DNA of 64,000 nucleotides from Bradyrhizobium sp. CB2312 (GTDB lineage Bacteria > Pseudomonadota > Alphaproteobacteria > Rhizobiales > Xanthobacteraceae), in assembly GCF_029714425.1 (NCBI RefSeq), contig NZ_CP121668.1, positions 1,943,501 through 2,007,500 of the forward strand, read 5' to 3'. Below the pieces are notes generated by a model that was not told the origin of the DNA, did not search any database, and worked only from the letters and a program-made list of their open reading frames with translations. Every line of letters begins with the position of its first letter. Position 1 is the first letter of the stretch. Shown piece after piece: positions 1,145-29,124 of this stretch. The position numbers were made by a program, and so were the translations under genes.

Positions 1145-1372
1145 TTACGATTTGCTAAGCCGCGCAACCCTTTTGAGCAGGTCTCCGGGTTCGACCCCTA
1201 ATGCTTCAGCAATTTGCCCGAGGACGGTGACGCTTGCTGATACGTCGCCGCGCTCGATGGCGCCGACATAACGGGCGCTTAAACCCGCACGCTCGGCCAA
1301 CTCCTCCTGCGTCATTTGTAGATCGTGGCGTTTCCGACGCAGGTTCACAGCCATGATCTCTTTGAGATCCAT
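1145..1372 (-). CDS. qseC: QseC-like XRE-family repressor
   Basis: This is a 75-residue single-domain XRE/Cro-type DNA-binding protein: the helix-turn-helix spans about residues 14-56 (MTQEELAERAGLSARYVGAIE). It is divergent from a small DUF2285-type gene, with two perfect palindromes in the gap. The same arrangement occurs in Mesorhizobium ICEMlSymR7A, where QseC represses or activates qseM and its own gene through operators in the shared intergenic region, forming a switch for ICE transfer. The QseC name rests on that gene order, size and the operator pair. XRE membership itself is clear from sequence. It may be a different repressor of the same type. Confidence 0.75.
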   Translation of the reverse strand: MDLKEIMAVNLRRKRHDLQMTQEELAERAGLSARYVGAIERGDVSASVTVLGQIAEALGVEPGDLLKRVARLSKS

Positions 1373-1393
1373 GGCGATATGGGAACTGAGCCG

Positions 1394-1421
1394 GAACGAT
1401 CGTTCTAGGAACGATCGTTCC
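1394..1421. promoter_or_regulatory. tandem palindromic operators in qseC-qseM gap
   Basis: The perfect palindrome GAACGATCGTTC occurs twice, at 1394-1405 and 1409-1420, with centres 15 bases apart; the second extends to GGAACGATCGTTCC. They begin 21 bases upstream of the qseC-like start codon and about 160 bases before the qseM-like start. Exact repetition of a 12-base palindrome next to an XRE gene strongly suggests operators for that repressor. Confidence 0.8.
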
Positions 1422-1582: not shown

Positions 1583-1858
1583 ATGATGCAGAAGCCATCC
1601 CTCGATCCAGACGTGGCGGACAGTGCGCCGAATGAGCCGGCACCGACGGCCTATGACGAACAGCACGTCGTCACGTACATTCGGCTTCTGCAGGCGGAGG
1701 GTGAGGGCGCCGACTGGCGCGAAGTCGCTCGAGTGGTCTTGCATATGGACCCAGAGCGAGAGCCAGATCGTGCGCGGCGCGCATATCAGAGTCATCTTGC
1801 GCGCGCTAAATGGATGACTGAACAGGGCCGCCTACTACGTGGCACCGGCTCGAAATAG
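1583..1858 (+). CDS. qseM: QseM-like DUF2285 antiactivator
   Basis: This is a protein of about 91 residues from the preferred ATG at 1583 (the frame is open back to 1457, but the extra N-terminus is not family-like; the ATG at 1586 is equally possible). The core reads YDEQHVVTYIRLLQAE, then ADWREVARVVLHMDP and RARRAYQSHLARAKWM, which is the small DUF2285-type fold. In ICEMlSymR7A the equivalent small protein QseM binds TraR and FseA and holds ICE transfer off. Position supports this: it is divergent from qseC-like and directly upstream of the FseA-like gene. The name is by family and synteny, not by a direct alignment. Confidence 0.72.
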   Translation: MMQKPSLDPDVADSAPNEPAPTAYDEQHVVTYIRLLQAEGEGADWREVARVVLHMDPEREPDRARRAYQSHLARAKWMTEQGRLLRGTGSK

Positions 1859-2024
1859 AACAGAATCGCCGCCTGGTGACCTGCAGGCAGAACTATTTTC
1901 TTTTGCTGACCGGTGGTCATTCCAGTGCACCACGTGGTGCCAAACTAGGGGCTTCCTACAACCGTCTCGTTCATACCTATTGCGCCGCAATCGTTGTTAG
2001 CAGCGTGCAATGGGGCGCAAGCAA

Positions 2025-2796
2025 ATGCCTGAATTCGACTGGCGGTCGCCAGATTCCTACAAGAGCCTACAAGACGCCGAGATCACCGACATCGCCTGGG
2101 AATGTCTCCGCCGTAACGCCGATTATCAGCGTGAGTACGAGGTGATGATTGCCCGCAGCCAGAATGGCGAAGTGACTGAGGAATTCAGGAGGAAATGGGG
2201 CATCTGCTTTCGCCCATGACCCGCAGAGGTCCTTTGACGAGCAGACGATCTTTTGGGCGCCAGAGGTTTTAGCGGCGGTCGTTCCGGTCAAGGTCGCAGT
2301 GCCTGAAGACGGCGGCGCGCAGTCTCAGCCACTGCTCGACCTTACAGCTGGTCAGGTGCGCCGCGCCGTCGACGGCTGGCACGCGGTGCTGCGCATCGGT
2401 GCGGTAGATCACCGAATCTGGTCCAAGGAGCCGCCGGTGCTCGGCGAGTCATACGCAGCCGAATTGCCGTTTGATGGCGATTTCGACGCGCGCGCATATG
2501 CAGCACGGCGGCTGTGGCGGGCGATGAATGGGCGCGCGCCAGGTCCTGCATTTCATCAACTTTCGAAACAGCGGCGCGAGCGCTTGAGTGCTGCGATCCG
2601 TGCGCTCGATGCGCATAGCGCCGGCAGCAGCTATCGCGTTATCGCCGAAGCGCTGTTCGGCAAGAAGCGTGTTCCCGATCGCGCCTGGAAGACGCATGAT
2701 CTGCGCAATCGAACGGTCCGCCTGGTGCAAGGCGGCCTCGCGTTGATGCGCGGTGGTTACCGCAAGCTTCTGCGGCCAAGGCGTAGGAACGAGTAG
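2025..2796 (+). CDS. fseA: FseA-like ICE transfer activator, two frames joined by +1 frameshift
   Basis: Two overlapping reading frames form one protein. The first (2025-2219; an ATG at 2010 is also possible) carries the DUF6499 motif FDWRSPDSY and WECLRRNADYQREYE, and stops at TGA 2217-2219. The second frame, open from before this point to 2796, carries DUF2285 with SSYRVIAEALFG and GLALMRGGYRKLL. Skipping one base at CGC CCA T GAC gives continuous RPDPQRSFDEQ, about 256 residues. In ICEMlSymR7A the msi172-msi171 pair is fused by programmed +1 ribosomal frameshifting into FseA, activator of excision and transfer. Same domains, frame relation and neighbours here. A plain mutation is the alternative, but the conserved architecture argues for regulated shifting. 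Confidence 0.75.
2211..2220 (+). promoter_or_regulatory. candidate +1 programmed frameshift site
   Basis: The sequence CGCCCATGAC puts a slowly decoded UGA stop directly after a CCA proline codon. Moving forward one base turns TGA into GAC and continues in the DUF2285 frame. This is the only place where DUF6499 and DUF2285 homology join without loss. Confidence 0.6.
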
Positions 2797-2929
2797 CGCA
2801 GCCCCCGAGGGGTACCGAAAATCGTACCCCCTACATTCGGCATCCCCCTCCGAGATCTTGCTCCTCCATGATGACCCCACGCACGCCGGCCTAGCCAAGC
2901 GTCGTGCGCTGTCCTCTTGGAGTCCTCAA

Positions 2930-3211
2930 ATGCCAGATCCGATGGCCGGTCTTCCCCCGCGGTTCCTGCGTACGCCGGAGGCTGCGCGCTATCTTGGCCT
3001 ATCCGGTCGCACGCTTGAGAAGCACCGCACGTACGGTACTGGACCGACGTATCGGAAGATCGGTGGACGCGTCGTCTACGCCGTCGAGGATTTGAAGGCG
3101 TGGGCCGACCGGGGCGCCAAGACGTCGACCTCCGATCCCGGGAAGGGAACCGTGCTGCCGGCCAAGAAGCAGCCGGCCCTGCGTCCCTATGCAGGTCAGG
3201 AACGTCGCTGA
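2930..3211 (+). CDS. rdfS: excisionase-like HTH protein (RdfS-like)
   Basis: This is a 93-residue protein with an AlpA/MerR-type winged helix (LRTPEAARYLGLSGRTLEKH, then Y-KIGGRVVYAVEDLKAW, about residues 11-61), followed by a basic, lysine-rich tail. Such proteins act as recombination directionality factors that bend DNA for ICE excision by the integrase. In ICEMlSymR7A rdfS heads the operon controlled by FseA and is followed by a replication initiator, parA, DUF2840 and traF, which is the order found here. GGAG stands 7 bases before the ATG at 2930; the frame is open further upstream but without family similarity. A transcription regulator of the same fold is the alternative. Confidence 0.7.
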   Translation: MPDPMAGLPPRFLRTPEAARYLGLSGRTLEKHRTYGTGPTYRKIGGRVVYAVEDLKAWADRGAKTSTSDPGKGTVLPAKKQPALRPYAGQERR

Positions 3212-3233: not shown

Positions 3234-4115
3234 ATGCGGCGCAAGCACCCTTCCGAGCGAGAGCAGCTTGAGCTCTTTCGGGCGCTACCCGGCGATCTCG
3301 CGCCGCGCGACGCGCAGGATCTGATGGCCTATCCGTTCTTCTCGCTCGCAAAAACGAAGCGGATCGCGCCGATCGATTTCCGTGCCGGTGCAATCGCCAT
3401 TCGCGTCGAAGCGGTGCCGGAACACGGCATGGCGACCATCTGGGATGCAGACGTTCTGATCTGGGCCGCCTCGCAGATCGTCGAAGCCCGTGACGCCGGC
3501 TTGAAGCCGTCGCGCCTGATGGCTGCAACGCCGTACGAGATTCTGACGTTTGTCGGCCGCGGCACCAGCGCGCGCGACTATGACCGCCTGAAGGCTGGTC
3601 TCGACAGGCTTCAGTCAACGACCGTGCTGACGTCGATCCGCCAGCCGGCAGAACGGCGGCGGCATCGCTTCTCCTGGATCAACGAGTGGAAGGAGACGGC
3701 CGATGCAAATGGTCGGCCATTTGGCCTCGAATTGATTCTGCCTGATTGGTTCTATGCCGGCGTCATCGATGACGCGCTCGTGCTGACGATCGACCGGGCT
3801 TATTTCGATCTGACGGGCGGGCTCGAGCGGTGGCTCTACCGGCTCGTGCGCAAGCACGGCGGCCGGCAGGAGGGCGGCTGGAGTTTTGATCTTGTGCACC
3901 TCCATGCCAAGTCCGGCATCCTCTCGCCGCTCAAGCACTTCGCTTACGACGTCCGTCAAATCGTCCAGCGCCAGACATTGCCCGGCTATCAGCTCGTGCT
4001 CACGCGCGATCCGAACGGCACCGAGCGCCTGAACTTCGCGCCGGCTCCCTTTGATCCCTTAACGGCACGCCTGCGCCGGCGCGATCTCATTCCAAATTCG
4101 GAGGACAACCTGTGA
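3234..4115 (+). CDS. RPA-type replication initiator protein A
   Basis: This is a 293-residue protein of the RPA (replication initiator protein A) family. Recognisable blocks are LMAYPFFSLAK near the start, WDADVLIWAASQI, YDRLKAGLDRLQSTTV and W-YRLVRKHGG. RPA proteins bind iterons at a plasmid-like origin; in ICEs they are thought to support replication of the excised circle. Three direct repeats begin six bases after its stop, fitting that job. The start at 3234 is 22 bases after rdfS, so the two are probably co-transcribed. Replication in this ICE is inferred, not shown. Confidence 0.85.
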   Translation: MRRKHPSEREQLELFRALPGDLAPRDAQDLMAYPFFSLAKTKRIAPIDFRAGAIAIRVEAVPEHGMATIWDADVLIWAASQIVEARDAGLKPSRLMAATPYEILTFVGRGTSARDYDRLKAGLDRLQSTTVLTSIRQPAERRRHRFSWINEWKETADANGRPFGLELILPDWFYAGVIDDALVLTIDRAYFDLTGGLERWLYRLVRKHGGRQEGGWSFDLVHLHAKSGILSPLKHFAYDVRQIVQRQTLPGYQLVLTRDPNGTERLNFAPAPFDPLTARLRRRDLIPNSEDNL

Positions 4116-5752: not shown

Positions 5753-6030
5753 CGTTCGCCTCCACCGCCGACCGCCGGAACGCACCGCGCGTTCCGTTCG
5801 CGAATCGTTGCGAGGCATTTTCGCTGCAGTTTGGCCGCCGAGGGGGCACCGGTCAGTACCCCGGCTAAACAGAAATCCTTCGGATTTCTTCTAACGGACC
5901 AGGCTGGACATCGCATCACAGGCGACTGGCGCCCGCGGGCTGTCATTCCTCCTTTCCGGCATGAGCCGCACAGCTGCTTCACCGGCGCCAATGCTTACGG
6001 CTCCACATTCGCCGTTCCGGGAGCAGCAGC

Positions 6031-6495
6031 ATGAACGACCTCACCGAGGTGGAAGTGCTGTGGCTCGACAAGCGGATCGAGAACCGCATTCGGTTCGGTC
6101 GTATCGTCAAGGAACGGAAGCTCGATCGCCACCGGCGCGTCCTGTCGTTTGCGCCCGGAAGTATCTTTGCTTTCGTTCGCTGGACATCCAATGACTTTGG
6201 AACGGTCATTTCGCGGATCGATATCCTGCGGGCGGTCGCGCCGGGACAGCGCTGCTCCACCGTCCCTTATGTGAAGCCGGGCGGGGAGATCCTGCTCCGT
6301 CTGTCCGGCTGGCCGAAGGTTGAGCGCGTGCTGCAGATGATCGATGCCGTTGAGGCACTCGCCATTGCTCCCGCCGATGTCGCGCCTGATCATTGGCATC
6401 ACGTTCATAACCGTTTGTCCGTCAACGAAAACCCGCGCCCCTACACGAAAGCGCGCCACCAGGCCTGGCTTCACCGGCAGAGGGTAACGCGATGA
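6031..6495 (+). CDS. DUF2840 domain-containing protein
   Basis: This is a 154-residue protein of the DUF2840 family, found almost only in rhizobial and related ICE transfer operons directly before traF. Family features include the N-terminal VEVLWLDKRIE-RIRFG, a central FAPGSIFAFVRW and a C-terminal histidine-containing DHWHHVHNRLSV. Function is unknown. Its stop overlaps the traF start by four bases, so the two are translationally coupled. A leading promoter may have been lost or changed, because an IS110 element lies just upstream. Confidence 0.85.
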   Translation: MNDLTEVEVLWLDKRIENRIRFGRIVKERKLDRHRRVLSFAPGSIFAFVRWTSNDFGTVISRIDILRAVAPGQRCSTVPYVKPGGEILLRLSGWPKVERVLQMIDAVEALAIAPADVAPDHWHHVHNRLSVNENPRPYTKARHQAWLHRQRVTR

Positions 6496-7004
6496 GCGAC
6501 CGCTTGAAGACGCTGGCGGTCACGTTTGGTGCCGCTGCCGCGCTCGCCGCGACAATCGTCCTGGAGCCGCTGCCACTCTACATCTGGAATGCATCGGCAA
6601 GCGTGCCGATCGGTCTCTATCGCCTGCGACCGGCTGAACGCTTCCACGTTACCGAGCTGGTCGCCGTGCAGCCGCCGGAGCCGCTTGCGACATTCCTTGA
6701 CCTTAACGGCTACCTGCCAATCGGCGTCCCCATGCTCAAGCGGGTCCTTGCGCTGCCGGGGCAGACGATCTGCAGAAGCGGGCCCACGATCTCGGTCGAC
6801 GACATTGCAATGGGGGAAGCGCGGGATCGCGACGGCCGCGGCCGGCCGCTGCCGAAATGGCAGGGCTGCCGCGTTGTCGGCGACGGCGAGCTGTTTCTGA
6901 TGAACTGGCAGTCGGACGACTCTCTTGATGGCCGATATTTTGGACTTCTTCCGGCATCTAGCGTGATCGGCCGTGCGATCCCGGTGTGGACGTGGGAGGA
7001 GTGA
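6492..7004 (+). CDS. traF: TraF, S26-type conjugal signal peptidase
   Basis: This is a 170-residue membrane-anchored S26 serine peptidase. After a hydrophobic N-terminal segment (residues about 8-31) come the active-site serine in SVPIGLYRL (Ser37) and the general-base lysine in MLKRVLALPG (Lys83), then GDGELFLMN and DSLDGRYFG blocks. TraF of IncP-type systems cyclises and matures TrbC pilin; here TrbC lies in the same element. It overlaps DUF2840 and is followed by the transglycosylase gene, the standard order of this ICE family. Confidence 0.92.
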   Translation: MSDRLKTLAVTFGAAAALAATIVLEPLPLYIWNASASVPIGLYRLRPAERFHVTELVAVQPPEPLATFLDLNGYLPIGVPMLKRVLALPGQTICRSGPTISVDDIAMGEARDRDGRGRPLPKWQGCRVVGDGELFLMNWQSDDSLDGRYFGLLPASSVIGRAIPVWTWEE

Positions 7005-7114
7005 TCGTGCGCATTCCAAGTGCTCTCCTCGCCATGCTCCAGTTCGATCGGTTGCGGCATCAGTCCTCCGTTTCGATCGATGTCTGCAAGGCTGGCGCGA
7101 GCCAGACCGCGTAT

Positions 7115-7837
7115 ATGAGTCGGTCGGTCACGCGCGTTGGTGCTGTCGTTTCCCTGGTGCTTCTTCTGACCGCGTTCGACAGTTTTGCTATGGCCCAGAG
7201 CGGATCAGCCCCGCAGCCGGCGATCGGTCAGACCGCTCACGCATTTGCCGGTTTCATCAATGAGGCCTCACAACGCTTTGCGATTGCGCCGAACTGGATC
7301 CGGTCAGTCCAAAGCATCGAGAGTGCTGGTGACGTGCACGCCAGATCGCCAAAAGGCGCAATGGGCCTGATGCAAATCATGCCGGCGACTTGGGCGGAAC
7401 TTCGCGAGCGCTACAATCTCGGGAACGACCCCTACGATCCGCGCGACAACATTCTGGCCGGCACAGCCTATTTGCGCGAACTGCTCGATCGGTATGGCTC
7501 GTCTGGCGTGTTTGCCGCGTACAACGCGGGACCATCTCGCTATGAAGAGTATCTCGCAGGAGGTTCTCTGCCAGACGAGACGCGGGCATACGCCGCAAAG
7601 CTTGCAAATCTGCTCGCCGTCGAGCTGCCGCCGACGTGGACCTCCAGCGGACAGTTATCAGCAGCTGGGACGCTATTCGTCACGCGATCCGACCTCATGA
7701 AAACGCACGAGTGGTTGCGAGCGCTTATGCCGTCGAGTGGTGTCGCGATCGCAATCTCGGCGCCCGATGTTTCGCGCATGGTGCCCCGACCTGTTGGTGT
7801 GTTCGTCCCTCGATCGGATGCGGGAGTATCGCAATGA
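7115..7837 (+). CDS. conjugal lytic transglycosylase (SLT domain)
   Basis: This is a 240-residue periplasmic lytic transglycosylase that opens peptidoglycan for the mating channel. An N-terminal signal peptide (residues about 1-28, ending FAMAQ) precedes an SLT domain with catalytic Glu69 in SIESAG, then GAMGLMQIMPATW and FAAYNAGPSRY. I chose the ATG at 7115 because it starts a proper signal peptide; the frame is open to 6986. In ICEMlSymR7A the matching gene is msi107, between traF and the relaxase gene. Confidence 0.87.
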   Translation: MSRSVTRVGAVVSLVLLLTAFDSFAMAQSGSAPQPAIGQTAHAFAGFINEASQRFAIAPNWIRSVQSIESAGDVHARSPKGAMGLMQIMPATWAELRERYNLGNDPYDPRDNILAGTAYLRELLDRYGSSGVFAAYNAGPSRYEEYLAGGSLPDETRAYAAKLANLLAVELPPTWTSSGQLSAAGTLFVTRSDLMKTHEWLRALMPSSGVAIAISAPDVSRMVPRPVGVFVPRSDAGVSQ

Positions 7838-8591
7838 CCAATTGCGCGAGTTCGCAAGTCTTGGCGTGCTTCACCGAGCAGGTGATATGTGCTGATGGCG
7901 TACGGGCGATGCCTTCGGCCCGCGCTCTACTCGTCGCTTCGCTCCTCACCGAGCCACCCTTCGGGTGTCTCGGCCCTTCGGGTAACGATCGCTATCGCAA
8001 GCACTTGGAAGCAGTGGGGGCTTCGCGATTTGGCTGCCAAGTCGCGGCGGCTCTTTCGGGGACCGGTGACCGGGAGACAACGACACAGCATGTTGAGGAG
8101 GGAACGAAATTAGAGATCCGCGCGCGCGGTGAGCGTCCCCTGGCGGGGCCGCGAAACGGGGAATGTCCGCTATCTCTTGCCTGCTGCCGCCCTTCGGGGA
8201 CGAGAGCGCCGGACTGCTTGGACAGCCCTGTTCACGAACCTGATGAAGAGCATGCGACGGCCGAAGTGCTGAACGCGAAGGAACGCATGGACCCCGCCTG
8301 GTGAAGGCCACTGCAACGCGGTGTGGTGACGTTTGTGCGTCGTAGATGGAGGGAAGCAGCGATGCTTATTTTGCGAGGACTCGAGGAAAAACCTAGGAAT
8401 GAGTTGACTTTGCCCGCCCGATTAGGAAGGCGAGATAAAAGAGGCTCGCCGGTCGAACCGCAAGCCATTGGCATGGCTTGGGTTCTGGCGTGCCGGTCGG
8501 TCGGGGCGCGTGCCGCGCCTTGCATTTTGACGAATGCAATCAAAGGCGTTTTCGGCACCATTTGCGCTTTTGATCGTTGGGAGGCTCTGCC
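7838..8591. other. 754-base non-coding region before the relaxase gene, candidate oriT
   Basis: No convincing gene is seen. A hairpin at 7949-7973 pairs CCGAG with CTCGG and ACCC with GGGT around TTC, and a second short CCCTTCGGG follows. In this ICE family the transfer origin lies beside the relaxase gene, so oriT may be here, but I cannot identify a nic site. Confidence 0.4.
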
Positions 8592-10355
8592 GTGAGTGTG
8601 GGCGACAGCGACCTGCGTATTCGGCCTGGGCGCATTCGCAGCACCCGCGCGCCGAAGCAGAAAAGCTTCATCAATCAGGTGCTGAGGGCGGCGAAGAAAG
8701 CAGGACACACCTCGGGTCAGGCTGCGGCCGGGACGCGTTCGGCGGCCTATGGGCGCTCGACCTTTGGCCGCGGTCGGCTGTCTTTTAACCGCGCCAGATT
8801 GTTCAGCCCGACGCGGCGCGTTGTGGTGAAGGCGCGCGTCGTTCGTCACAAAGGGCGAGCCTTCCGTTCAGCACCGCTGACGGCCCATCTCTCATATCTG
8901 AAGCGCGACAGTGTGACCCGGAATGGTGAGCGTGCCGAGATGTTCGATGCCGGCAGCGACCGCGCCGATAGCGCGGCTTTCGCAGAACGTTGCAAGGACG
9001 ACCGTCACCATTTTAGGTTCATCGTCTCGCCGGAGGATGCCGGCGACATGACCGATCTGAAGGCCTTCACCCGCGATCTCGCCAGGCAGATGGAGACTGA
9101 TCTCGGCACGCGGCTCGATTGGGTGGCCGTCGGTCACTGGAATACCGACAACCCCCACGTCCATTTTCTCGTTCGGGGGATAGATGAGGAGGGGGCGGAT
9201 CTCGTCATCTCCCGTGACTATATCAGCCGGGGCCTCCGTTCACGCGCCGAAGAACTGGTCGCGATCGAACTGGGTCCAAAACCGGAACACGATATCCGCA
9301 ATTCGCTCGAGAGGGAAGTCATCGCGGAACGATGGACGCGGCTTGATCGGGAGATCCGGCTGACAGCCGACGAGACCGGCTACATCGATCTTCGCCCAGA
9401 GCATCCCGGCAAGTCCGATCCCGATATCCGGCGCCTGATGGTCGGCCGCCTTCAACACCTGGAGAAGATGGGCCTTGCTGCCTCCGCCGGGCCGGGGGAG
9501 TGGATGGTCGGGCTCGAAGCCGAGCGCAGCTTGCGCGACCTTGGCATGCGCGGCGACATCATCAAGACCATGCACCGCGCCTTTACCGAGCGTGGTGAAG
9601 CGCGCGGCATTGCCGACTTCGTCATCGAGGGTGGACAGCCGACGTCCCAAATCATCGGACGGCTGGTCGGCCGTGGATTGCATGACGAACTGACTGGCGA
9701 GGCCTACGCCTTGATCGACGGAACAGACGGACGTGCACACCACGTGCGCTTCCGCGGGATCGAGGCCTTCGACCACGCACCGCCGGTCGGGGGCATCGTC
9801 GAAGTCCGACGCTTCGGTCAGGCCGGCGATCCGCGGACGACCGTGGTGCTGGCGATCCGCTCTGACCTCGATCTAGCCGAGCAGGTCACCGCGAAGGGCG
9901 CAACCTGGCTCGACCACAGGCTGGTCGAACGCGACCCCATGCCGCTCGCCATGGGCGGATTCGGCCGCGAGACCCGCGACGCCATGGGAGCCCGTACCGA
10001 GCATCTGATCCAGAAGGGCCTGGCACGGCGGCAGGGCCAACGCGTCATCTTGCAGCGGGACCTCCTGAACACGTTGCGCCGGCGTGAGTTGGAGGAGGTG
10101 GCAGCAAAAGTCTCGGCCGACATCGGCTTGCCTCATGTGAACGCCGCCTCTGGGGAGCATGTGGCGGGCACGTATCGCCAGCGGCTGACGCTCGCCTCGG
10201 GACGCTTCGCCATGATCGATAATGGGCTCGGCTTCCAGCTCGTGCCCTGGTCGCGCGAACTCGAGAAGAGGCTCGGCCAACACGTCACCGGTGTCGTGAA
10301 GGACGGCGGTGGTATCGAATGGGGCTTTGGTCGCAAGCGCGACCTCGGCCTCTAG
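8592..10355 (+). CDS. rlxS: RlxS-like DUF3363 relaxase
   Basis: This is a 587-residue relaxase that nicks oriT and leads the strand into the recipient. The start is GTG at 8592 with GGGAGG at 8579-8584. The N-terminal region is basic; the relaxase/mobilisation domain contains the metal-binding histidine triad in HWNTDNPHVHFLV (His182, His189, His191) and RHHFRFIVSPED before it. The remaining two-thirds is the DUF3363 domain. This is the type called RlxS in ICEMlSymR7A. It is followed after 36 bases by traG. Confidence 0.9.
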   Translation: MSVGDSDLRIRPGRIRSTRAPKQKSFINQVLRAAKKAGHTSGQAAAGTRSAAYGRSTFGRGRLSFNRARLFSPTRRVVVKARVVRHKGRAFRSAPLTAHLSYLKRDSVTRNGERAEMFDAGSDRADSAAFAERCKDDRHHFRFIVSPEDAGDMTDLKAFTRDLARQMETDLGTRLDWVAVGHWNTDNPHVHFLVRGIDEEGADLVISRDYISRGLRSRAEELVAIELGPKPEHDIRNSLEREVIAERWTRLDREIRLTADETGYIDLRPEHPGKSDPDIRRLMVGRLQHLEKMGLAASAGPGEWMVGLEAERSLRDLGMRGDIIKTMHRAFTERGEARGIADFVIEGGQPTSQIIGRLVGRGLHDELTGEAYALIDGTDGRAHHVRFRGIEAFDHAPPVGGIVEVRRFGQAGDPRTTVVLAIRSDLDLAEQVTAKGATWLDHRLVERDPMPLAMGGFGRETRDAMGARTEHLIQKGLARRQGQRVILQRDLLNTLRRRELEEVAAKVSADIGLPHVNAASGEHVAGTYRQRLTLASGRFAMIDNGLGFQLVPWSRELEKRLGQHVTGVVKDGGGIEWGFGRKRDLGL

Positions 10356-10391
10356 CAATCTCGCCAATTCAGTTGCGGAAGGACGCTCGGA

Positions 10392-12380
10392 ATGTCCGGA
10401 ACCAAAATCCTCTGGGGACAGGTGATCGTTGTCGGCCTGATCGTCTTGCTGGCCATCTGGGGAGCAACCGAGTGGACGGCCTGGCGACTTGCCTACCAGC
10501 CCGAGCTTGGCCGGCCCTGGTTCGAACTGTTGGGCTTCAAGATCTATTATCCGCCGATCTTCTTCTGGTGGTGGTTCGTCTACGATGCCTACGCGCCTCA
10601 GGTCTTTGTCGAGGGAGCCTTCATCGCGTCGTGGGGGACCTTTGTTTCGATCGCTGTGGCGATCGGCATGTCGGTCTGGCGGGCCCGCGAGGCCAAGAAT
10701 GTCGAGACCTATGGGTCGGCGCGCTGGGCTAATGCGGAAGAGGTTCGAGCGGCCGGACTTCTCGGTCCGGATGGTGTGGTACTGGGCAAGCTCGATCGCG
10801 ACTACCTCCGCCATGATGGGCCGGAGCACGTGTTGTGTTTTGCACCCACCCGTTCAGGTAAGGGCGTTGGCCTCGTTGTCCCATCTCTTCTCGCTTGGCC
10901 GGGTTCGGCCATCGTGCACGATATCAAGGGGGAGAACTGGCAACTGACCGCGGGTTTCCGCTCGCGGCATGGCCGCGTCCTGTTGTTCGACCCAACCAAC
11001 TCGAAATCCTCGGCTTACAATCCGCTTCTCGAGGTCCGGCGCGGGGAATGGGAGGTTCGCGATGTGCAGAACGTCGCCGACGTCCTGGTCGACCCCGAAG
11101 GCTCTCTCGACAAGCGGAATCATTGGGAGAAGACCAGTCATTCGCTCCTGGTCGGCGCTATCCTCCATGTCCTCTATGCCGAGGTGGACAAGACCCTGGC
11201 CGGTGTCGCCGCCTTCCTGTCCGATCCGAAGCGGCCGATCGAGGCGACGCTGAAGGCAATGATGACCACTGCGCACCTTGGCGAGCAGGGCGCCCATCCC
11301 GTGGTCGCCTCGACCGCGCGCGAACTCCTCAACAAATCCGAGAATGAACGCTCCGGCGTCCTGTCCACGGCGATGTCGTTTCTCGGGCTCTACCGCGATC
11401 CCGTGGTGGCCCAGGTGACCTGCCGTTGCGACTGGCGGATTGCCGATCTGATCGCGGACAGCCACCCGACGACTCTTTACCTTGTGGTTCCGCCCTCCGA
11501 TATCTCGCGGACCAAGCCGCTGATCCGTCTGGTGCTGAACCAGATTGGTCGTCGCCTGACTGAAGACCTGCACGCCCGCGACCGTCGGCGTCGAGTCCTG
11601 ATGATGCTCGACGAGTTCCCGGCACTGGGGCGGCTTGATTTCTTCGAGTCCGCGCTCGCCTTCATGGCGGGGTACGGCATCAAGAGCTTCTTGATCGCGC
11701 AGTCGCTCAATCAGATCGAGAAGGCCTATGGGCCCAACAACGCCATCCTCGACAACTGCCACGTTCGCGTCAGTTTTGCGACCAACGACGAGCGGACCGC
11801 CAAGCGGGTGTCCGATGCACTGGGCACCGCGACCGAGATGCGAGCGATGAAGAATTATGCCGGGCACAGATTGAACCCCTGGCTGGGGCACCTGATGGTC
11901 TCGCGCCAGGAGACGGCTAGGCCGCTGCTGACCCCGGGCGAAGTCATGCAGCTTCCGCCGATGGACGAGATCGTCATGGTGGCGGGGACGGCGCCGATCC
12001 GGGCGAAGAAGGTCCGCTACTATGAGGATCGGCGATTCACCGAGCGGGTTTTGCCGCCGCCGGATCCGGCGAGGGCCGGTCGATCCTCGCGAACGGACGG
12101 ATGGTCAGCGCTCGGAGCGCTGGAGCCGACGGGAGGTCCAACTGACAAAGCCGCGGAGGCCGAGAAAGTCACGGCGAACAGCGGACTCCGTCGTGAACCT
12201 GAACTCCCCGATCACGTTGCTATCGTCAGGGAAACAATCGAATCGACACCGGCAGAAGAATTTGCCGCCGTTCTTGACGATGATGAGGATGCTGTCCGCC
12301 AGTCCCGGCTCATACGCCAACAGATGCGCGGTGTCGCCCGTCAAGTCGCCATGGACCCAAATGACGGTATGGAGCTCTGA
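10392..12380 (+). CDS. traG: TraG/VirD4 type IV coupling protein
   Basis: This is a 662-residue inner-membrane ATPase that couples the relaxase-DNA complex to the mating pore. Two N-terminal membrane segments lie at about residues 7-27 and 48-90; a Walker A motif APTRSGKGVG follows at about 151-160 and Walker B LMMLDEF at about 402-408. The C-terminus from about 560 is hydrophilic and variable, as usual. It sits between the relaxase and CopG genes in one operon. Length matches TraG of IncP-like systems. Confidence 0.95.
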   Translation: MSGTKILWGQVIVVGLIVLLAIWGATEWTAWRLAYQPELGRPWFELLGFKIYYPPIFFWWWFVYDAYAPQVFVEGAFIASWGTFVSIAVAIGMSVWRAREAKNVETYGSARWANAEEVRAAGLLGPDGVVLGKLDRDYLRHDGPEHVLCFAPTRSGKGVGLVVPSLLAWPGSAIVHDIKGENWQLTAGFRSRHGRVLLFDPTNSKSSAYNPLLEVRRGEWEVRDVQNVADVLVDPEGSLDKRNHWEKTSHSLLVGAILHVLYAEVDKTLAGVAAFLSDPKRPIEATLKAMMTTAHLGEQGAHPVVASTARELLNKSENERSGVLSTAMSFLGLYRDPVVAQVTCRCDWRIADLIADSHPTTLYLVVPPSDISRTKPLIRLVLNQIGRRLTEDLHARDRRRRVLMMLDEFPALGRLDFFESALAFMAGYGIKSFLIAQSLNQIEKAYGPNNAILDNCHVRVSFATNDERTAKRVSDALGTATEMRAMKNYAGHRLNPWLGHLMVSRQETARPLLTPGEVMQLPPMDEIVMVAGTAPIRAKKVRYYEDRRFTERVLPPPDPARAGRSSRTDGWSALGALEPTGGPTDKAAEAEKVTANSGLRREPELPDHVAIVRETIESTPAEEFAAVLDDDEDAVRQSRLIRQQMRGVARQVAMDPNDGMEL

Positions 12381-14456: not shown

Positions 14457-15419
14457 GTGACAATCCATTCCATTCAATCGGAAGCGAATTCGCGCGGTGC
14501 GCGAATGCTGCGCAGCGCACTTGGCTCTGCGATTGCCGGCTACCTCGAAGACGACGCGATCATCGAGGTGATGCTCAACCCGGATGGACGGCTGTGGGTC
14601 GACCTGTTGTCGAGTGGCCTGATCGACACAGGCGAAACTCTCTCCGCAGCCGATGGCGAGCGCATTGTCCGCCTGGTAGCACATCATGTCGGTGCCGAGG
14701 TGCATGCCGGTGCGCCGAGGGTATCAGCCGAACTACCCGGGACCGGTGAGCGCTTCGAAGGACTCTTACCCCCGGTCGTTGCAGCACCGGCCTTTGCCAT
14801 CCGCAAGCCCGCCGTCGCCGTGTTTACGCTCGACGACTACGTCGCCAGGGGAATCATGACCTCGGAGCAGGCCGAGATCCTGCAGAACGCGGTCGTCGCA
14901 CGGAAGAACATCCTGGTCGCCGGTGGGACATCGACCGGCAAGACAACCCTGACGAATGCGCTTCTGGCCGAGGTGGCGAAGACCTCCGATCGGGTCGTGC
15001 TGATCGAAGACACCCGCGAGCTACAGTGCAGGGCGCCCAATCTCGTTGCGCTGCGGACCAAGGACGGTGTGGCCACGCTGTCGGATCTTGTCCGCTCGTC
15101 CCTCCGACTGCGTCCTGACCGCATTCCGATCGGCGAAGTCCGAGGTGCCGAAGCACTCGACCTGCTCAAGGCCTGGGGCACCGGCCATCCCGGCGGCATC
15201 GGTACCATCCATGCTGGGACTGCGCTCGGTGCGCTGCGGCGGCTCGAGCAACTCATCCAGGAAGCCGTCATCACGGTTCCGCGCGCCCTGATCGCCGAGA
15301 CCATCAACCTCGTCGCCGTCCTTGCGGGCCGCGGCGCCGATCGTCGCCTCGCTGAGCTCGCCCTCGTCACCGGGCTCGGGGCCGCCGGCGACTACAGCCT
15401 TTCAACAGCAGGAGACTGA
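14457..15419 (+). CDS. trbB: TrbB conjugal transfer ATPase
   Basis: This is a 320-residue VirB11-type secretion ATPase energising pilus assembly at the inner membrane. Walker A is [10 protein letters not shown] (about residues 158-167), followed by the Asp box [10 protein letters not shown], and the His box [10 protein letters not shown] near residues 242-251. The start is GTG at 14457. It leads the trb operon; trbC begins two bases after its stop. Family assignment is secure. Confidence 0.95.
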
Positions 15420-15420
15420 C

Positions 15421-15744
15421 ATGCGTCAGCAATTTCGCTTTTTTCGAGGTGCATCGTTGGCCGCCTTCGGCGCGGTGCTTTTGGCGTCGGCGCCGGCGTG
15501 GGCGGCTGGCTCGAACATGCCGTGGGAGCAGCCACTCAATCAGATCTTGCAGTCGGTCGAAGGCCCGGTCGCGAAGATCATCGCCGTCATCATCATCGTC
15601 GTGACCGGGCTCACGCTCGCGTTCGGTGACTCGTCAGGTGGTTTCCGCAGGCTGATCCAGATCGTGTTCGGTCTGTCGATCGCATTTGCCGCCTCGAGCT
15701 TCTTCCTGTCGTTCTTCTCCTTCGGCGGCGGCGTGGTGATCTGA
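15421..15744 (+). CDS. trbC: TrbC prepilin
   Basis: This is a 107-residue VirB2/TrbC pilin precursor. It has a signal peptide (residues about 1-27, ending APAWA), a short mature N-terminus with SNMPWEQPL, and two membrane segments separated by the small polar loop around GDSSGGFRR. It is exported, cleaved and, in IncP systems, cyclised by TraF, which this element also encodes. It overlaps trbD by one base (ATGA-type coupling). Confidence 0.93.
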   Translation: MRQQFRFFRGASLAAFGAVLLASAPAWAAGSNMPWEQPLNQILQSVEGPVAKIIAVIIIVVTGLTLAFGDSSGGFRRLIQIVFGLSIAFAASSFFLSFFSFGGGVVI

Positions 15745-16007
15745 TGGGTGAACTGGTCACAGGCTTTGTCGTGCCCGTTCACCGCGCGCTCACCGAGCCA
15801 ATTCTGATGGGCGGCGCGCCGCGGTCGGTTGCGATCGTGAACGGCACGCTTGCGGCAGCCCTTGAGCTGGGATTGCGGCTCTGGATCGCGGGTCTTGTCC
15901 TCTGGTTCATCGGCCACATGGCCGCCGTCTGGGCCGCCAAGCGCGATCCAGCCTTTGTCGACGTCGTGCGCCGACATCTGCGTATTCCCGGCCATCTCAA
16001 CACCTGA
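15744..16007 (+). CDS. trbD: TrbD, VirB3-like inner-membrane protein
   Basis: This is an 87-residue VirB3-family protein with two close hydrophobic segments (about residues 31-60) after the characteristic VPVHRALTEPILMGGAPR. It anchors the TrbE ATPase at the inner membrane of the mating channel. Length and order match the family. Confidence 0.92.
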   Translation: MGELVTGFVVPVHRALTEPILMGGAPRSVAIVNGTLAAALELGLRLWIAGLVLWFIGHMAAVWAAKRDPAFVDVVRRHLRIPGHLNT

Positions 16008-16017
16008 GCTCGATAAT

Positions 16018-18459
16018 ATGATGAACCTTGCCGAATACCGCCATTCCAACGCGCGTCTTGCCGACTTCCTGCCGTGGGCCGCCTTGGTCGACGAGGGGAT
16101 CATCCTGAACAAGGACGGCTCGTTCCAACGGACGGCGAAGTTCCGGGGACCTGACCTGGATAGCGCAGTGCCGGCTGAACTCGTCGCCGTCGCGGGTCGC
16201 CTGAATAACGCCCTGCGCCGCCTGGGATCTGGTTGGGCAGTCTTCGTTGAGGCGCAACGCCATTTTGCGGGTGCTTATCCGCCGAACACCTTTCCGGATG
16301 TCGCGTCCGCACTGGTCGACGCTGAGCGCCGAGCTCAGTTTGAAGAGGCGGACGCTCACTATGAATCCAGTTACTTCCTCACCTTTCTTTACCTGCCCCC
16401 CGAGGAGGGGGCCGCCAGGGCGGAGCGACTACTCTATGAGGGACGCGATCGGAGCGTTGGAGCCGACGCGCACGAGGTGCTGCGCGGGTTTGTCGATCAA
16501 ACCAACCGCGTACTGCAACTCGTCGAAGGCTTCATGCCCGAATGCGCCTGGCTCGACGATCAGGACACACTGACCTACCTGCACTCGACGATCTCGACCA
16601 AGCGTCACCGCGTTCGGGTGCCCGAAATTCCCATGTACATCGATGCGCTCTTGGCCGACCAGCCGTTGACCGGCGGGCTAGAGCCAATGTTGGGCTCAGC
16701 CAATCTTCGGGTCCTGACGATTGTCGGCTTTCCGGGCGCTACGACCCCGGGGATCCTGGACGACCTGAATCGTCTGCCATTCTCGTATCGGTGGTCGACC
16801 CGGGCAATCATGCTCGACAAGATTGATGCCACCAAGCTTCTGACCAAGATTCGACGGCAGTGGTTCGCCAAGAGAAAGTCGATTGGCGCCATTCTCAAGG
16901 AGGTCATGACGAACGAGGCGTCGACGCTGCTCGATACCGACGCCCACAACAAGGCAATAGATGCCGACGCGGCTTTGCAGGAACTGGGGTCGGATCAGAT
17001 CGGGCAAGCCTTTGTCACTGCAACAATTACCGTCTGGGATCGCGATCCCAATGCTGCCGACGAAAAGCTGAGGTTGGTCGAGAAGGTCCTCCAGGGCCGC
17101 GATTTCACCTGTATGATCGAGACGGTGAACGCCGTTGAAGCGTGGCTCGGCAGTCTGCCCGGGCACGTCTACGCCAATGTGCGGCAGCCGCCGGTATCGA
17201 CCCTCAACCTCGCCCATATGATTCCGATGTCGGCCGTGTGGGCCGGCGAGGCGAGGGATCTGCACTTCAAGGGTCCGCCGCTTCTGTTCGGCAAGACCGA
17301 GGGATCAACGCCGTTCCGATTCTCACTCCACGTCGGCGATGTCGGTCATACCCTCGTGGTGGGGCCGACAGGCGCTGGCAAGTCAGTGCTACTCGCGCTG
17401 ATGGCGCTACAGTTCCGCCGCTATCCGAACTCTCAGGTTTTTGCGTTTGACTTCGGCGGTTCAATCCGGGCGGCCGCGCTCGCCATGAATGGCGACTGGC
17501 ATGATCTCGGCGGTGCGCTGTCTGCCGGAGACGAGAGCCCCGTCGCCCTGCAACCGTTGGCCTGGATCGACGATTCCGTCGAGCGGGGGTGGGCGACGGA
17601 ATGGATCGGCGCGATCCTGGCGCGAGAAAAGCTTGAGATCACCCCGGAGGTCAAGGATCACCTGTGGTCGGCGCTGACGTCTCTTGCCTCGGCGCCGAGG
17701 GAGGAGCGCACCCTCACGGGCCTGTCGGTTCTGCTGCAATCGAACTCCCTGAAACGCGCCTTGCAACCTTATTGCCTCGGCGGTCCATCCGGGCGCTTGC
17801 TCGATGCTGAATTCGAGCGCCTTGGCGAGGCCTCGGTGCAGGCATTCGAGACCGAAGGCTTGATCGGAACGAGTGCTGCGCCGGCCGTGCTGGCGTACCT
17901 CTTCCATCGCATTGGTGATCGTCTCGACGGCCGGCCAACACTCCTGATTGTCGACGAAGGCTGGCTTGCCCTCGATGACGAGGATTTTGCAGGGCAACTC
18001 CGGGAATGGCTGAAGACGCTTCGGAAAAAGAACGCGTCCGTTATCTTCGCCACCCAGTCGCTTTCGGACATTGATGGATCTGCGATCGCGCCGGCCATCA
18101 TCGAAAGCTGCCCAACGCGATTGTTGCTGCCGAACGAACGGGCGATCGAGCCGCAGATCACTGCCATCTACCGCCGCTTCGGCCTCAATGACCGCCAGAT
18201 CGAGCTTCTGAGCCGGGCTACGCCAAAGCGCGACTACTATTGCCAGTCTCGTCGCGGCAACCGGATGTTCGAACTTGGTCTTGGCGAGATTGCGCTCACA
18301 TTTACCGCAGCCTCTTCCAAGACAGACCAGGCTGTCATCACGCAACTCATCGCCGAACATGGAGCCGACGGCTTCGTGCCCGCCTGGCTCCAGCACCGTG
18401 GCGTCGCCTGGGCCCTCGACCTGATCCCCAATCTCGTCAATCTGGAGAAACCGCTATGA
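16018..18459 (+). CDS. trbE: TrbE, VirB4-type ATPase
   Basis: This is an 813-residue VirB4/TrbE ATPase, the largest motor of the mating apparatus. The N-terminal CagE/TrbE/VirB domain is followed by Walker A GPTGAGKSVL at about residue 450 and Walker B LLIVDEGWL near 641-649, with the downstream FATQSLSDI motif. I place the start at tandem ATG codons (16018), since MNLAEYR is the conserved N-terminus; the frame is open further upstream inside trbD. Its 3' end overlaps trbJ by four bases. Confidence 0.95.
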   Translation: MMNLAEYRHSNARLADFLPWAALVDEGIILNKDGSFQRTAKFRGPDLDSAVPAELVAVAGRLNNALRRLGSGWAVFVEAQRHFAGAYPPNTFPDVASALVDAERRAQFEEADAHYESSYFLTFLYLPPEEGAARAERLLYEGRDRSVGADAHEVLRGFVDQTNRVLQLVEGFMPECAWLDDQDTLTYLHSTISTKRHRVRVPEIPMYIDALLADQPLTGGLEPMLGSANLRVLTIVGFPGATTPGILDDLNRLPFSYRWSTRAIMLDKIDATKLLTKIRRQWFAKRKSIGAILKEVMTNEASTLLDTDAHNKAIDADAALQELGSDQIGQAFVTATITVWDRDPNAADEKLRLVEKVLQGRDFTCMIETVNAVEAWLGSLPGHVYANVRQPPVSTLNLAHMIPMSAVWAGEARDLHFKGPPLLFGKTEGSTPFRFSLHVGDVGHTLVVGPTGAGKSVLLALMALQFRRYPNSQVFAFDFGGSIRAAALAMNGDWHDLGGALSAGDESPVALQPLAWIDDSVERGWATEWIGAILAREKLEITPEVKDHLWSALTSLASAPREERTLTGLSVLLQSNSLKRALQPYCLGGPSGRLLDAEFERLGEASVQAFETEGLIGTSAAPAVLAYLFHRIGDRLDGRPTLLIVDEGWLALDDEDFAGQLREWLKTLRKKNASVIFATQSLSDIDGSAIAPAIIESCPTRLLLPNERAIEPQITAIYRRFGLNDRQIELLSRATPKRDYYCQSRRGNRMFELGLGEIALTFTAASSKTDQAVITQLIAEHGADGFVPAWLQHRGVAWALDLIPNLVNLEKPL

Positions 18460-19184
18460 AGCGTCTTGGTCTGTTGGCGGCCGCTGGCACTGTCGCACTA
18501 GTGCTTGGCGTCGCGGTGCCCGCACGGGCGCTGATTGTCTTCGATCCCAACAACTATGTTCAGAACGTCCTGACCGCCGCGCGGGAGCTCCAGCAGATCA
18601 ACAATCAGATCATCTCGTTGCAGAACGAGGCGCAGATGCTCATCAATCAGGCGAAGAACCTGGCAAACCTTCCGTATTCATCGCTGCAGCAACTGCAATC
18701 CTCGATTCAGCGGACCCAGCAATTACTGGGCCAGGCGCAGCGCATTGCCTATGACGTCCAGCAGATCGATCGCGCGTTCTCGACGAACTACGCGCCGGCC
18801 GCTGGAAACCAATCCAGCCAGTTGCTGGTCACCAACGCTCAATCGCGGTGGCAAAATACTTACGCGGCAACACAAGACGCGCTTCGAGTCCAAGCCGGCA
18901 TCGTTGACAATCTCGACACTAACCGCATCCAGACGTCCGCGCTCGTAACGTCAAGCCAAGGCGCTAGCGGCGCTCTGCAGGCAACGCAAGCTGGCAATCA
19001 GATCCTTGCGCTGAACGCGCAGCAGCTCGCCGACCTCACCGCTGTCGTGACGGCGCAAGGCCGGGCGCAGAGTCTTGAATCAGCTCAGCGCGCCTCGGCC
19101 CAGGATCAGGGACGAGAACAACTTCGGCGCTTCCTGACACCTGGGCAGGGCTATCAATCATCCAACGTGCAGATGTTCCACTAA
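18456..19184 (+). CDS. trbJ: TrbJ, VirB5-like pilus tip protein
   Basis: This is a 242-residue periplasmic protein with a signal peptide (ending at about residue 24, VPARA) and a largely helical, glutamine- and asparagine-rich body (AARELQQINNQIISLQNEA). TrbJ/VirB5 proteins are minor pilus components. The start overlaps the trbE stop; the end overlaps trbK by one base. Confidence 0.93.
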   Translation: MKRLGLLAAAGTVALVLGVAVPARALIVFDPNNYVQNVLTAARELQQINNQIISLQNEAQMLINQAKNLANLPYSSLQQLQSSIQRTQQLLGQAQRIAYDVQQIDRAFSTNYAPAAGNQSSQLLVTNAQSRWQNTYAATQDALRVQAGIVDNLDTNRIQTSALVTSSQGASGALQATQAGNQILALNAQQLADLTAVVTAQGRAQSLESAQRASAQDQGREQLRRFLTPGQGYQSSNVQMFH

Positions 19185-19555
19185 TGACCGACTTAAAGGC
19201 ATTCAAGGCTTTGTCGCTGCTTACGACAATCGGCCTAGTAGCCGTCGCTGCCTGCACGATTCAGCTGCGTGGCGGAGACAATTCTCCGCCGACACCGAGG
19301 GCGGAGCAGACGACCGATGCAACCAGCTCAGACCTCGCGCGCTGCCGCGGCGTCACTCCGGAAGAAACAGCGGATTATCGGCAATGTAAGGGCGTTTGGG
19401 CCGAAAACCGGCGACGCTTCTTGGGCAAGAAAGCCGGTGCCGCTGTTCCAGGCCAAGAGAAACCGCCCGTAACGTTGGCGCCCGCCCCAAAAGACCAGAG
19501 CCGGATCCCGCAAGGATATCCGCAACCGGTGACGCCCGAGGCGAGCAAGCCATGA
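19184..19555 (+). CDS. trbK: TrbK-like entry exclusion lipoprotein
   Basis: This is a 123-residue protein with an N-terminal lipobox (VAVAAC, Cys at about residue 24) and the family core RCRGVTPEETADYRQCKGVWAE with two conserved cysteines. The C-terminus is proline-rich. In related systems this position encodes the entry exclusion protein that lowers transfer into cells already carrying the element. It overlaps trbL by four bases. Confidence 0.85.
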   Translation: MTDLKAFKALSLLTTIGLVAVAACTIQLRGGDNSPPTPRAEQTTDATSSDLARCRGVTPEETADYRQCKGVWAENRRRFLGKKAGAAVPGQEKPPVTLAPAPKDQSRIPQGYPQPVTPEASKP

Positions 19556-20781
19556 CGGGTACGGGGATCATCGACCAGTTCTTGGAAACGTTCACGCGTT
19601 ATATCGATAACGGCTTCGGGCTGCTGCGAAGTGACGTCGGATATCTCGCCACGACTCTTGCCGCGATCGACATTACGCTTGCTGCGTTGTTCTGGAGTTG
19701 GGGGCCGGACGAGGACATCATCGCCCGTCTCGTCAAGAAGACGCTCTTTGTGGGCGTCTTTGCCTACCTCATCGGCAACTGGAACAGCTTGGCGCGCATC
19801 GTCTTCGAGAGCTTTGCCGGTCTTGGCTTGAAGGCATCTGGCACAAGTCTCTCCGCGTCGGACTTCCTGCGGCCGGGAAAGATCGCTCAAGTCGGACTCG
19901 ACGCCGGCCGTCCGCTGCTCGACTCGATCTCCAACCTGATGGGCTACATCAGCTTCTTCGAGAATTTCGTCCAGATCGTCGTTCTCCTGTTCGCCTGGGT
20001 CGTGGTGTTGCTCGCCTTCTTCATTCTGGCGATCCAGCTCTTTGTCACCCTGATCGAGTTCAAGCTCACGACGCTTGCCGGCTTCGTGCTCATTCCGTTT
20101 GGCTTGTTTGGCAAGACCGCCTTCGCAGCAGAGCGGATCCTGGGCAATGTCATATCCTCCGGAATCAAAGTCTTGGTCCTGGCCGTCATCGTCGGGATCG
20201 GATCGACCCTGTTCTCGCAGTTCACCGCTGGCTTTGGCGGCAATCAGCCAACCATCGAGGACGCGATGACACTGGTGCTCGCGGCGCTCTCCTTGCTGGG
20301 CCTCGGTATCTTCGGTCCGGGTATTGCAAACGGCCTGGTGTCGGGCGGACCTCAGCTCGGTGCCGGTGCCGCGGTTGGAACGGGCCTTGCTGCCGGTGGC
20401 ATTGTTGCGGCGGGCGCGGGTCTTGCCGCCGGCGGTGTTGGTCTCGCTGGCGGCGCAATTGCTGGGGCCGCGCGCGGCGGGGGCGCCGTCTGGAGTGGAG
20501 CGTCCGCCGCCTATCGAAGCGGAGGCATTGCTGGCGTTGCCGAGGCTGGCGCCTCGGCTGCCATGAGCCCGTTGCGTCGTGCAGCCGCCGCACTCGGCGG
20601 AGGTGGGGAAACCGGTGCGTCGGCCGCGAGCACTTCGGCCGAAGGGCAACCCGATTGGGCGCGACGCATGAAGCGTGCCGAGACTATTCGGCACGGTGCA
20701 TCAGCAGCCGGCCAAGCGGTCCGCTCAGGCGATCATAGTGGCAGCGGCTCATCCGTCGATTTGTCTGAAGGAGAGCGCTGA
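19552..20781 (+). CDS. trbL: TrbL, VirB6-like channel protein
   Basis: This is a 409-residue polytopic inner-membrane protein. About five to six hydrophobic segments lie between residues 25 and 270; the C-terminal third is a Gly/Ala-rich, low-complexity stretch ending in a polar tail. It forms part of the translocation channel. The layout is typical of TrbL, and trbF follows. Confidence 0.94.
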   Translation: MTGTGIIDQFLETFTRYIDNGFGLLRSDVGYLATTLAAIDITLAALFWSWGPDEDIIARLVKKTLFVGVFAYLIGNWNSLARIVFESFAGLGLKASGTSLSASDFLRPGKIAQVGLDAGRPLLDSISNLMGYISFFENFVQIVVLLFAWVVVLLAFFILAIQLFVTLIEFKLTTLAGFVLIPFGLFGKTAFAAERILGNVISSGIKVLVLAVIVGIGSTLFSQFTAGFGGNQPTIEDAMTLVLAALSLLGLGIFGPGIANGLVSGGPQLGAGAAVGTGLAAGGIVAAGAGLAAGGVGLAGGAIAGAARGGGAVWSGASAAYRSGGIAGVAEAGASAAMSPLRRAAAALGGGGETGASAASTSAEGQPDWARRMKRAETIRHGASAAGQAVRSGDHSGSGSSVDLSEGER

Positions 20782-20860
20782 CACCTCACCCTACAGCGCC
20801 TCAAAATCCGAGCCACCGCACGACTTGAAACCGATCACTCGATACCAGGGGCAACCATCG

Positions 20861-21544
20861 ATGTTCAAACGATCATCAGTACACTACGGGCGAATGCCCG
20901 AGCCGACTACGCCTTATCAAAAGGCAGCTCAGGTTTGGGACGAACGCATCGGATCGGCGCGAGTGCAAGCGAAGAACTGGCGCCTGATGGCATTCGGTTG
21001 CTTGATGCTTTCAGTCGGTCTCGCGGGTGGACTTGTCTGGCAATCAAATCAAGGCTCGATCACGCCGTGGGTGGTTGAGGTCGATCATCTTGGAAAGGCC
21101 CAAAGGGTTGCGCCAGCTAACATCGACTATCAGCCGACTGATGCGCAGATTGCCTACCATCTGGCGCGCTTTATCGAGGATGTCAGGAGCCTACCTGCCG
21201 ACGGAATCGTTCTGCGCCAAAACTGGCTTCGGGCCTATGATTTTACAACCGATCGCGGCGCGGCTGCGCTCAACGACTTCGCGCGCAACAACGACCCGTT
21301 CGCAAAGCTGGGTAAGGCGCAAATCTCCGTCGAGGTCTCGAGCGTCATTCGCGCCTCTTCGGAGAGCTTTCGGGTGGCTTGGACCCAGCGCACCTACGAC
21401 AACGGTTCGTTGAGCTCGATTGAGCGCTGGACTGCAATTCTCTCGATCGTCATCGAGACGCCCCGCGACGCCGAACGCCTGCGCAAGAATCCGCTTGGCG
21501 TTTACGTCCGCGCGATCAACTGGTCAAAGGAGTTGAGTCAGTGA
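20861..21544 (+). CDS. trbF: TrbF, VirB8-like bridge protein
   Basis: This is a 227-residue VirB8-family protein: a short cytoplasmic N-terminus (PTPY-like motif EPTTPYQKAAQVWDERIG), one membrane segment at about residues 42-62, and a periplasmic domain ending in the conserved NPLGVYVRAINWSKEL. I chose ATG 20861, where the conserved N-terminus begins. The stop overlaps trbG by four bases. Confidence 0.93.
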   Translation: MFKRSSVHYGRMPEPTTPYQKAAQVWDERIGSARVQAKNWRLMAFGCLMLSVGLAGGLVWQSNQGSITPWVVEVDHLGKAQRVAPANIDYQPTDAQIAYHLARFIEDVRSLPADGIVLRQNWLRAYDFTTDRGAAALNDFARNNDPFAKLGKAQISVEVSSVIRASSESFRVAWTQRTYDNGSLSSIERWTAILSIVIETPRDAERLRKNPLGVYVRAINWSKELSQ

Positions 21545-29032: not shown

Positions 29033-29124
29033 TGTGCGGACGCCGCTGGGGACGCAATCGTGTCCGCGGTTTGCCGGCGCACCTGCCTGCATCGCTCAGA
29101 TCAGCCAGCCAACAGGTAACGAAG

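Follow-up and report, generated by a model that had tools for sequence, protein, structure and literature searches.

The closest described system is the activator FseA of ICEMlSymR7A in Mesorhizobium japonicum, a product of the gene pair msi172-msi171. FseA frameshifting was the subject of a 2015 PNAS paper, and a 2022 paper dealt with an epigenetic switch (both as relayed in excerpts of PMC10359603, PMC5882170, PMC11963761, and PMC5009743). The excerpt of the 2016 review among these (PMC5009743) places the shift site of the ICE system at UUU, with a Trp codon four codons upstream, and describes UUU_Ynn as prone to +1 shifting in bacteria even without an adjacent stop. Besides, the available part of PMC10359603 states that about 61% of 4709 curated FseA homologues are split by a +1 frame, that the FseA box consists of two inverted hexamers 15 to 16 bp apart, and that QseM binds the DUF6499 domain of Msi172. 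FseA is absent from the available part of a paper on Bradyrhizobium (PMC11201211).

The split fseA gene and its neighbourhood

The window, that is, the whole 64,000-nucleotide stretch of Bradyrhizobium sp. CB2312 DNA that was analysed, contains at positions 2025 to 2796 two undamaged halves of a gene in frames offset by one base, correctly placed and described in the preliminary description (Table 1). The zero frame runs from an ATG at 2025 (or from another ATG at 2010) to a TGA and encodes DUF6499, and the +1 frame meets no stop codon between 2176 and the one at 2794-2796; since the zero frame ends at 2217-2219, any shift must be confined to 2176-2216. Each half alone passed its Pfam cut-off: PF20109 scored 76.7 bits (cut-off, 23.8) in the DUF6499 half, and PF10074 scored 109.8 bits (cut-off, 26.4) in the DUF2285/RovC half. 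The AWEFLRRN-like motif of the FseA family reads AWECLRRN in this DUF6499, and the family layout is found here as well, namely, a +1 split, a UUU shift codon, and a Trp as the fourth codon 5' of it (TGG GGC ATC TGC TTT C, 2196-2211). Structure prediction gave a single compact, RovC-like fold for the fused product, and the FseA-type product matches RovC (PDB 6xz5), which is itself one chain. On sequence grounds, the gene is identified as fseA, a further example of the published +1-frameshifted activator and of a kind already known.

Table 1. Features around fseA and in the transfer region of the window
Feature	Position	Strand	Remark
qseC-like HTH repressor gene	1145..1372	-	PF01381 HTH_3, 53.6 bits; adjoins qseM as in B. 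guangdongense plasmid (L339)
Palindromic repeat GGAACGATCGTTC, first copy, operator-like (putative QseC site)	1393..1405	.	Between qseC and qseM
Palindromic repeat GGAACGATCGTTC, second, identical copy, operator-like (putative QseC site)	1408..1420	.	
qseM-like lone DUF2285 antiactivator gene	1583..1858	+	phmmer versus solved QseM (7uqt), E 3.4e-16
Perfect 14-bp palindrome GCACCACGTGGTGC 5' of fseA, putative regulator site	1927..1940	.	
fseA, zero-frame part: DUF6499, AWECLRRN motif	2025..2219	+	Alternative start at 2010
Trp-Gly codons TGG GGC	2196..2201	+	Trp is fourth codon 5' of shift codon, a feature given in PMC5009743 (excerpt)
Proposed slip site UUU_C, tRNA-Phe UUU to UUC	2208..2211	+	TTT in 154/156 anchored split homologues
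fseA, +1-frame part: middle domain and DUF2285/RovC DNA-binding domain	2209..2796	+	
Zero-frame stop TGA, apparently selected in Bradyrhizobium	2217..2219	+	9 nt after first T of TTT
FseA-box candidate ACCGAA-N16-TTCGGC upstream of rdfS	2814..2841	.	One mismatch
rdfS-like excisionase gene	2930..3211	+	phmmer versus solved RdfS (8dgl), E 1.1e-10; HTH_17, 36.2 bits
Replication initiator protein A gene (repA)	3237..4115	+	PF10134, 292.6 bits
Genes for traF-like peptidase, SLT transglycosylase, DUF3363 relaxase, TraG coupling protein	6492..12380	+	
Mating-pair genes: T2SSE-type ATPase (TrbB-like), TrbC, TrbE-like, TrbL, VirB8-type, CagX-type, TrbI	14457..23765	+	

Both domains were detected at 111 distinct Bradyrhizobium loci, and 107 of these have the same +1 offset. 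The split is thus neither chance nor a sequencing error, and, together with the two Pfam domains, the offset supports the earlier assignment to the FseA family with a programmed +1 frameshift. The loci, which gave 113 domain pairs (two each in L015 and L099), are the best-ranked part of a longer match list (29 plus 80 loci), joined by the copies of the genome itself and a few more, so that weak relatives are under-sampled among them; one and the same stretch of 300 bases of the DUF2285 part belongs to both L013 and L045. Anchoring on the Trp codon failed for three of the +1 pairs (L088, L099, and L045), which leaves 104 anchored copies, two of which (L015 and L048) match DUF6499 at its end only. 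Both matched halves were open in 102 of the 104. Other genera are represented by the 52 copies returned as loci in the homologue searches. All conservation counts come from related sequences, and a tree of 102 genus copies corrects for kinship in part. Two further fseA copies in the same genome are also split, one with TTT C and the other with TTT T.

Single-frame homologues, which the preliminary description had named as counter-evidence, do occur: L013 is a close, intact copy (85% identity) in which one base close to the Trp codon is gone, whereas L323, likewise from Bradyrhizobium, is only distantly related. The objection applies in part, with 107 of the 111 loci split; the four exceptions are L013, L014, L016, and L057. 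It is extremely improbable that the gene is merely decaying through a plain frameshift mutation. Damaged genus copies exist, some keeping the +1 junction and having a later frame change (L014, L016, and L057) and others being split but damaged elsewhere (L015, L059, L061, and L088), but decay would account neither for an identical offset throughout the genus nor for the open halves, and the phase of silent changes described below indicates translation of both frames.

The database records examined here annotate such split genes as two separate proteins, as on the B. guangdongense plasmid, and separate start and end codons, with no frameshift claimed, are given for the Azorhizobium pair rihF1b/rihF1a in the available part of PMC9601964. 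Both would suit a DUF2285 part that has its own start (GTG 2299) and forms a pair with the peptide from the DUF6499 half. For our locus we regard two proteins as highly improbable, because 88 of 103 genus copies have no ATG, GTG, or TTG before +45 from the slip, and a conserved +1 stretch up to an FW motif precedes the starts; this test is weak outside Bradyrhizobium, where a start before +45 is possible in 34 of 51 copies. The compact fold predicted for the fused product and the single chain of RovC likewise argue for one protein.

The reported qseC- and qseM-like neighbours were confirmed by the matches in Table 1; with PF10074, the qseM-like protein scored 23.4 bits, slightly below the cut-off of 26.4. 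Likewise, the proposal of an ICE in Bradyrhizobium is supported by the relaxase, coupling protein, and trb genes in the window. The gene order is two DUF736 genes, the qseC-like gene (minus strand), the twin repeats, the qseM-like gene, fseA, the rdfS-like gene, repA, an IS110 transposase gene, a DUF2840 gene, and then the transfer genes; its section from qseC to repA recurs unchanged on the B. guangdongense plasmid. The IS110-family transposase gene lies at 4703-5818, between repA and the DUF2840 gene. Within the mating-pair stretch, the ORF at 18240-19184 had no Pfam match. Past the trb cluster, 28567-32897 holds possible cargo: two genes for cytochromes P450 and one for a short-chain dehydrogenase. 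As for traR/traI near fseA, no LuxI/LuxR family match was found in the window or the fetched flanks; the genome has two PF00765 and three PF03472 matches, all outside these regions. A second fseA copy in the same genome (L335, G000:C1:3335001-3355000) has a similar downstream layout, and LuxI (3365620) and LuxR (3370726) family matches lie about 25 to 31 kb from it.

The twin 13-bp palindromic repeats at 1393-1420 are spaced 15 bp from start to start. The palindrome GCACCACGTGGTGC has two perfect occurrences in the 9.78-Mb genome, one 5' of each of two fseA copies, and the third copy is without it. Perfect 12- to 16-bp palindromes of this type were present in 71 of 103 genus loci, with the centre 88 to 102 nt before the matched DUF6499 start, and the palindrome at 1927-1940 is likely to be a dedicated regulator site. 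Between fseA and rdfS, the genus has an inverted repeat of the GCCGAA-N15/16-TTCGGC type. Among 93 genus loci, this FseA-box-like repeat was perfect in 44, had one mismatch in 12, and had two to four mismatches in 32; the remaining 5 were without an anchor.

Probable location of the slip

The preliminary description had joined the two frames at CGC CCA T GAC and expected a conserved junction, CGCCCATGAC. Neither proposal was supported. Among the anchored copies, 61 of the 104 from Bradyrhizobium and none of the 52 others have this junction; the site that is kept is TTT C (2208-2211). Counting four codons on from the conserved Trp, TTT stands in 103 of 104 Bradyrhizobium copies and in 51 of the 52 from other genera. 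Of these 154 TTT codons, 153 have a pyrimidine as the next base (148 C and 5 T), and the last one has A. TTT accounts for 41% of the other Phe codons of the same genes in the genus and 26% in other genera. The exceptions are L160 (another genus), which has TTT one codon later, and L143 (Bradyrhizobium), which has TGT.

L143 is a divergent copy with TGT C for TTT C that retains the +1 offset as well as a stop close by; it has either decayed or shifts by another route. It was excluded from the sets of 103 and 102 sequences, so that the invariance of TTT there (no change on the 102-copy tree) results from the choice of copies, the free count being 103 of 104. Similarly, a 27-base pattern from the consensus of the other genera matched at least 119 stretches, 115 of them with a DUF6499 and DUF2285 pair and 110 unique, but this set was chosen by motif and hence is no evidence for TTT conservation. 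TTT also stands at the same place in 3 of 20 unsplit homologues examined, loci mostly picked for looking unsplit, and in L341.

The phase of silent changes bears on the same question. In 32 of the 104 anchored copies of the genus, the CCA codon (2214-2216) gives way to TCA, GCA, ACA, AGC, GGC, TGC, or GAC, and on the 102-copy tree base 2214 changes 14 times and base 2216 once. Upstream of the slip, it is the zero-frame third positions that change often, such as 2201 (23 times). Since the variation at 2214 is silent only in the +1 frame, this frame would already be read at 2212-2214, which places the frame change at or just before TTT C. The slip most probably occurs at UUU_C (2208-2211), a few bases upstream of CGC CCA T GAC. 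The silent-change pattern is a fix of the slip codon from sequence alone, and it independently reproduces the UUU site given in the excerpt of PMC5009743.

A slip at CCA_UGA (2214-2219), prompted by slow termination at UGA C in the manner of RF2, would retain the joint first proposed and would fit both the common place of the zero-frame stop in 101 of 103 Bradyrhizobium copies and the C after the stop in 92 of 102, as at the RF2 site. We rejected this reading as very unlikely, because the pre-stop codon varies in its first base and hardly in its third, which is the pattern of a +1 codon, and because other genera have, in 51 of 52 copies, their first zero-frame stop at a different distance from TTT (15 to 711 nt), with TTT unmoved.

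Among possible stimulators of the slip at UUU_C, RNA structure was examined in four folds near the site, none of which clearly beat shuffled sequences (z, -0.6 to +0.9). A GGGG tract is separated from the slip codon by 7 nt, and +1 stimulators are given as 3 nt away in the excerpt of PMC5009743; the GGGG tally among homologues is biased, as the anchor pattern on Trp demanded TGGGG or TGGA. Just 5' of the Trp codon, 77 of the 104 genus copies carry AGGAGG; since none of the 52 copies outside the genus does, an internal Shine-Dalgarno sequence was rejected as a general stimulator.

The zero-frame stop in Bradyrhizobium

The spacing of 9 nt between the first T of TTT and the stop, nearly constant in the genus as given above, was seen in 1 of 52 copies elsewhere and in 15 of 110 in the pattern-selected set. 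The +1 codon overlapping the stop is CAT in 95 genus copies and CAC in 1, whereas elsewhere in the same genes CAC occurs 308 times and CAT 280 times. Position 2217 is a silent +1 third position and yet is nearly always T, with one change on the 102-copy tree; in four copies the stop is TAA instead of TGA. Furthermore, the residue directly before the stop varies among genus copies. The near-fixed T together with this variable residue argues for selection for an early stop and not for a particular tail, and an early zero-frame stop appears to be selected in the Bradyrhizobium lineage. A constraint on the RNA itself may be an alternative cause of the conservation.

As to its purpose, we think it possible, if rather doubtful, that the selected stop yields a 64- or 69-residue DUF6499 peptide that soaks up QseM, one slip rate then setting both the activator and the anti-inhibitor. 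An abundant peptide of this kind could titrate QseM because of the binding to Msi172 noted in the excerpt of PMC10359603. Alternatively, the stop could leave the remaining message untranslated and damp the downstream rdfS transcript. Polarity, with the early stop tied to a neighbouring rdfS, was considered and rejected, as rdfS comes after fseA in 97 of 102 early-stop genus copies and also in 31 of 51 late-stop copies from other genera, which gives no clear link. The lineage-specific stop offers a clean test of the purpose of the short unshifted product.

Proposed regulation and comparison with known systems

We consider it highly probable that FseA, the master activator of ICE excision, is made here by a minority +1 slip at UUU_C, that the fused protein activates rdfS, and that the QseM-like protein restrains it. 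This reading builds on direct observation of the gene structure, the slip-site conservation, the phase of silent changes, the neighbours, the FseA-box layout, and the predicted compact fold. Most ribosomes would translate DUF6499, add Arg-Pro, and halt at the TGA (2217-2219). A minority would slip +1 at 2208-2211, with the Phe-tRNA shifting from UUU onto UUC, which is no less cognate. They would continue as ...CF-AHDP..., reading Ala-His-Asp-Pro and then the rest of the protein with its DUF2285 DNA-binding domain. In its fused form, FseA would then bind the inverted repeat at 2814-2841 and turn on rdfS, and the QseM-like protein (1583-1858) would restrain FseA by binding DUF6499. The FseA frameshift switch of Mesorhizobium seems to be kept in many Bradyrhizobium copies, with antiactivator and target alongside.

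Like FseA of ICEMlSymR7A, the protein proposed here combines DUF6499 and DUF2285 parts joined by a +1 shift, and its gene adjoins qseM and qseC. The shift codon UUU with a Trp codon fourth 5' of it (PMC5009743, excerpt) and an rdfS target with inverted hexamers 15 to 16 bp apart (PMC10359603, available part) are shared as well. The Mesorhizobium sequences compared, plasmid-borne copies from M. japonicum MAFF303099 (pMLb) and M. loti NZP2037, also have TTT CGC. Unlike in ICEMlSymR7A, qseM, fseA, and rdfS are consecutive on one strand here, and the window has no LuxI/LuxR match. Besides, the proximal hexamer stands 89 to 94 bp before the rdfS ATG, compared with 62 to 67 bp in the logo seen in the available part of PMC10359603, a distance about 27 bp longer. 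RovC differs in being one chain and, according to the same part of that paper, in activating a type VI secretion system and not excision.

RF2 (prfB) resembles our locus, as read here, in having a +1 slip, a nearby stop codon, and a G-rich tract upstream. In RF2, UGA directly follows the slip codon CUU, and a Shine-Dalgarno-like stimulator lies 3 nt away (PMC5009743, excerpt), whereas here the sequence is TTT CGC CCA TGA, with two sense codons between UUU and UGA and with GGGG 7 nt away. Finally, the UUU_CGN +1 sites of influenza PA-X and of plant amalgaviruses, as excerpted sources present them, have the same shift tetranucleotide with CGN as the next codon; they are used by eukaryotic ribosomes in unrelated genes, and the likeness is limited to the site.
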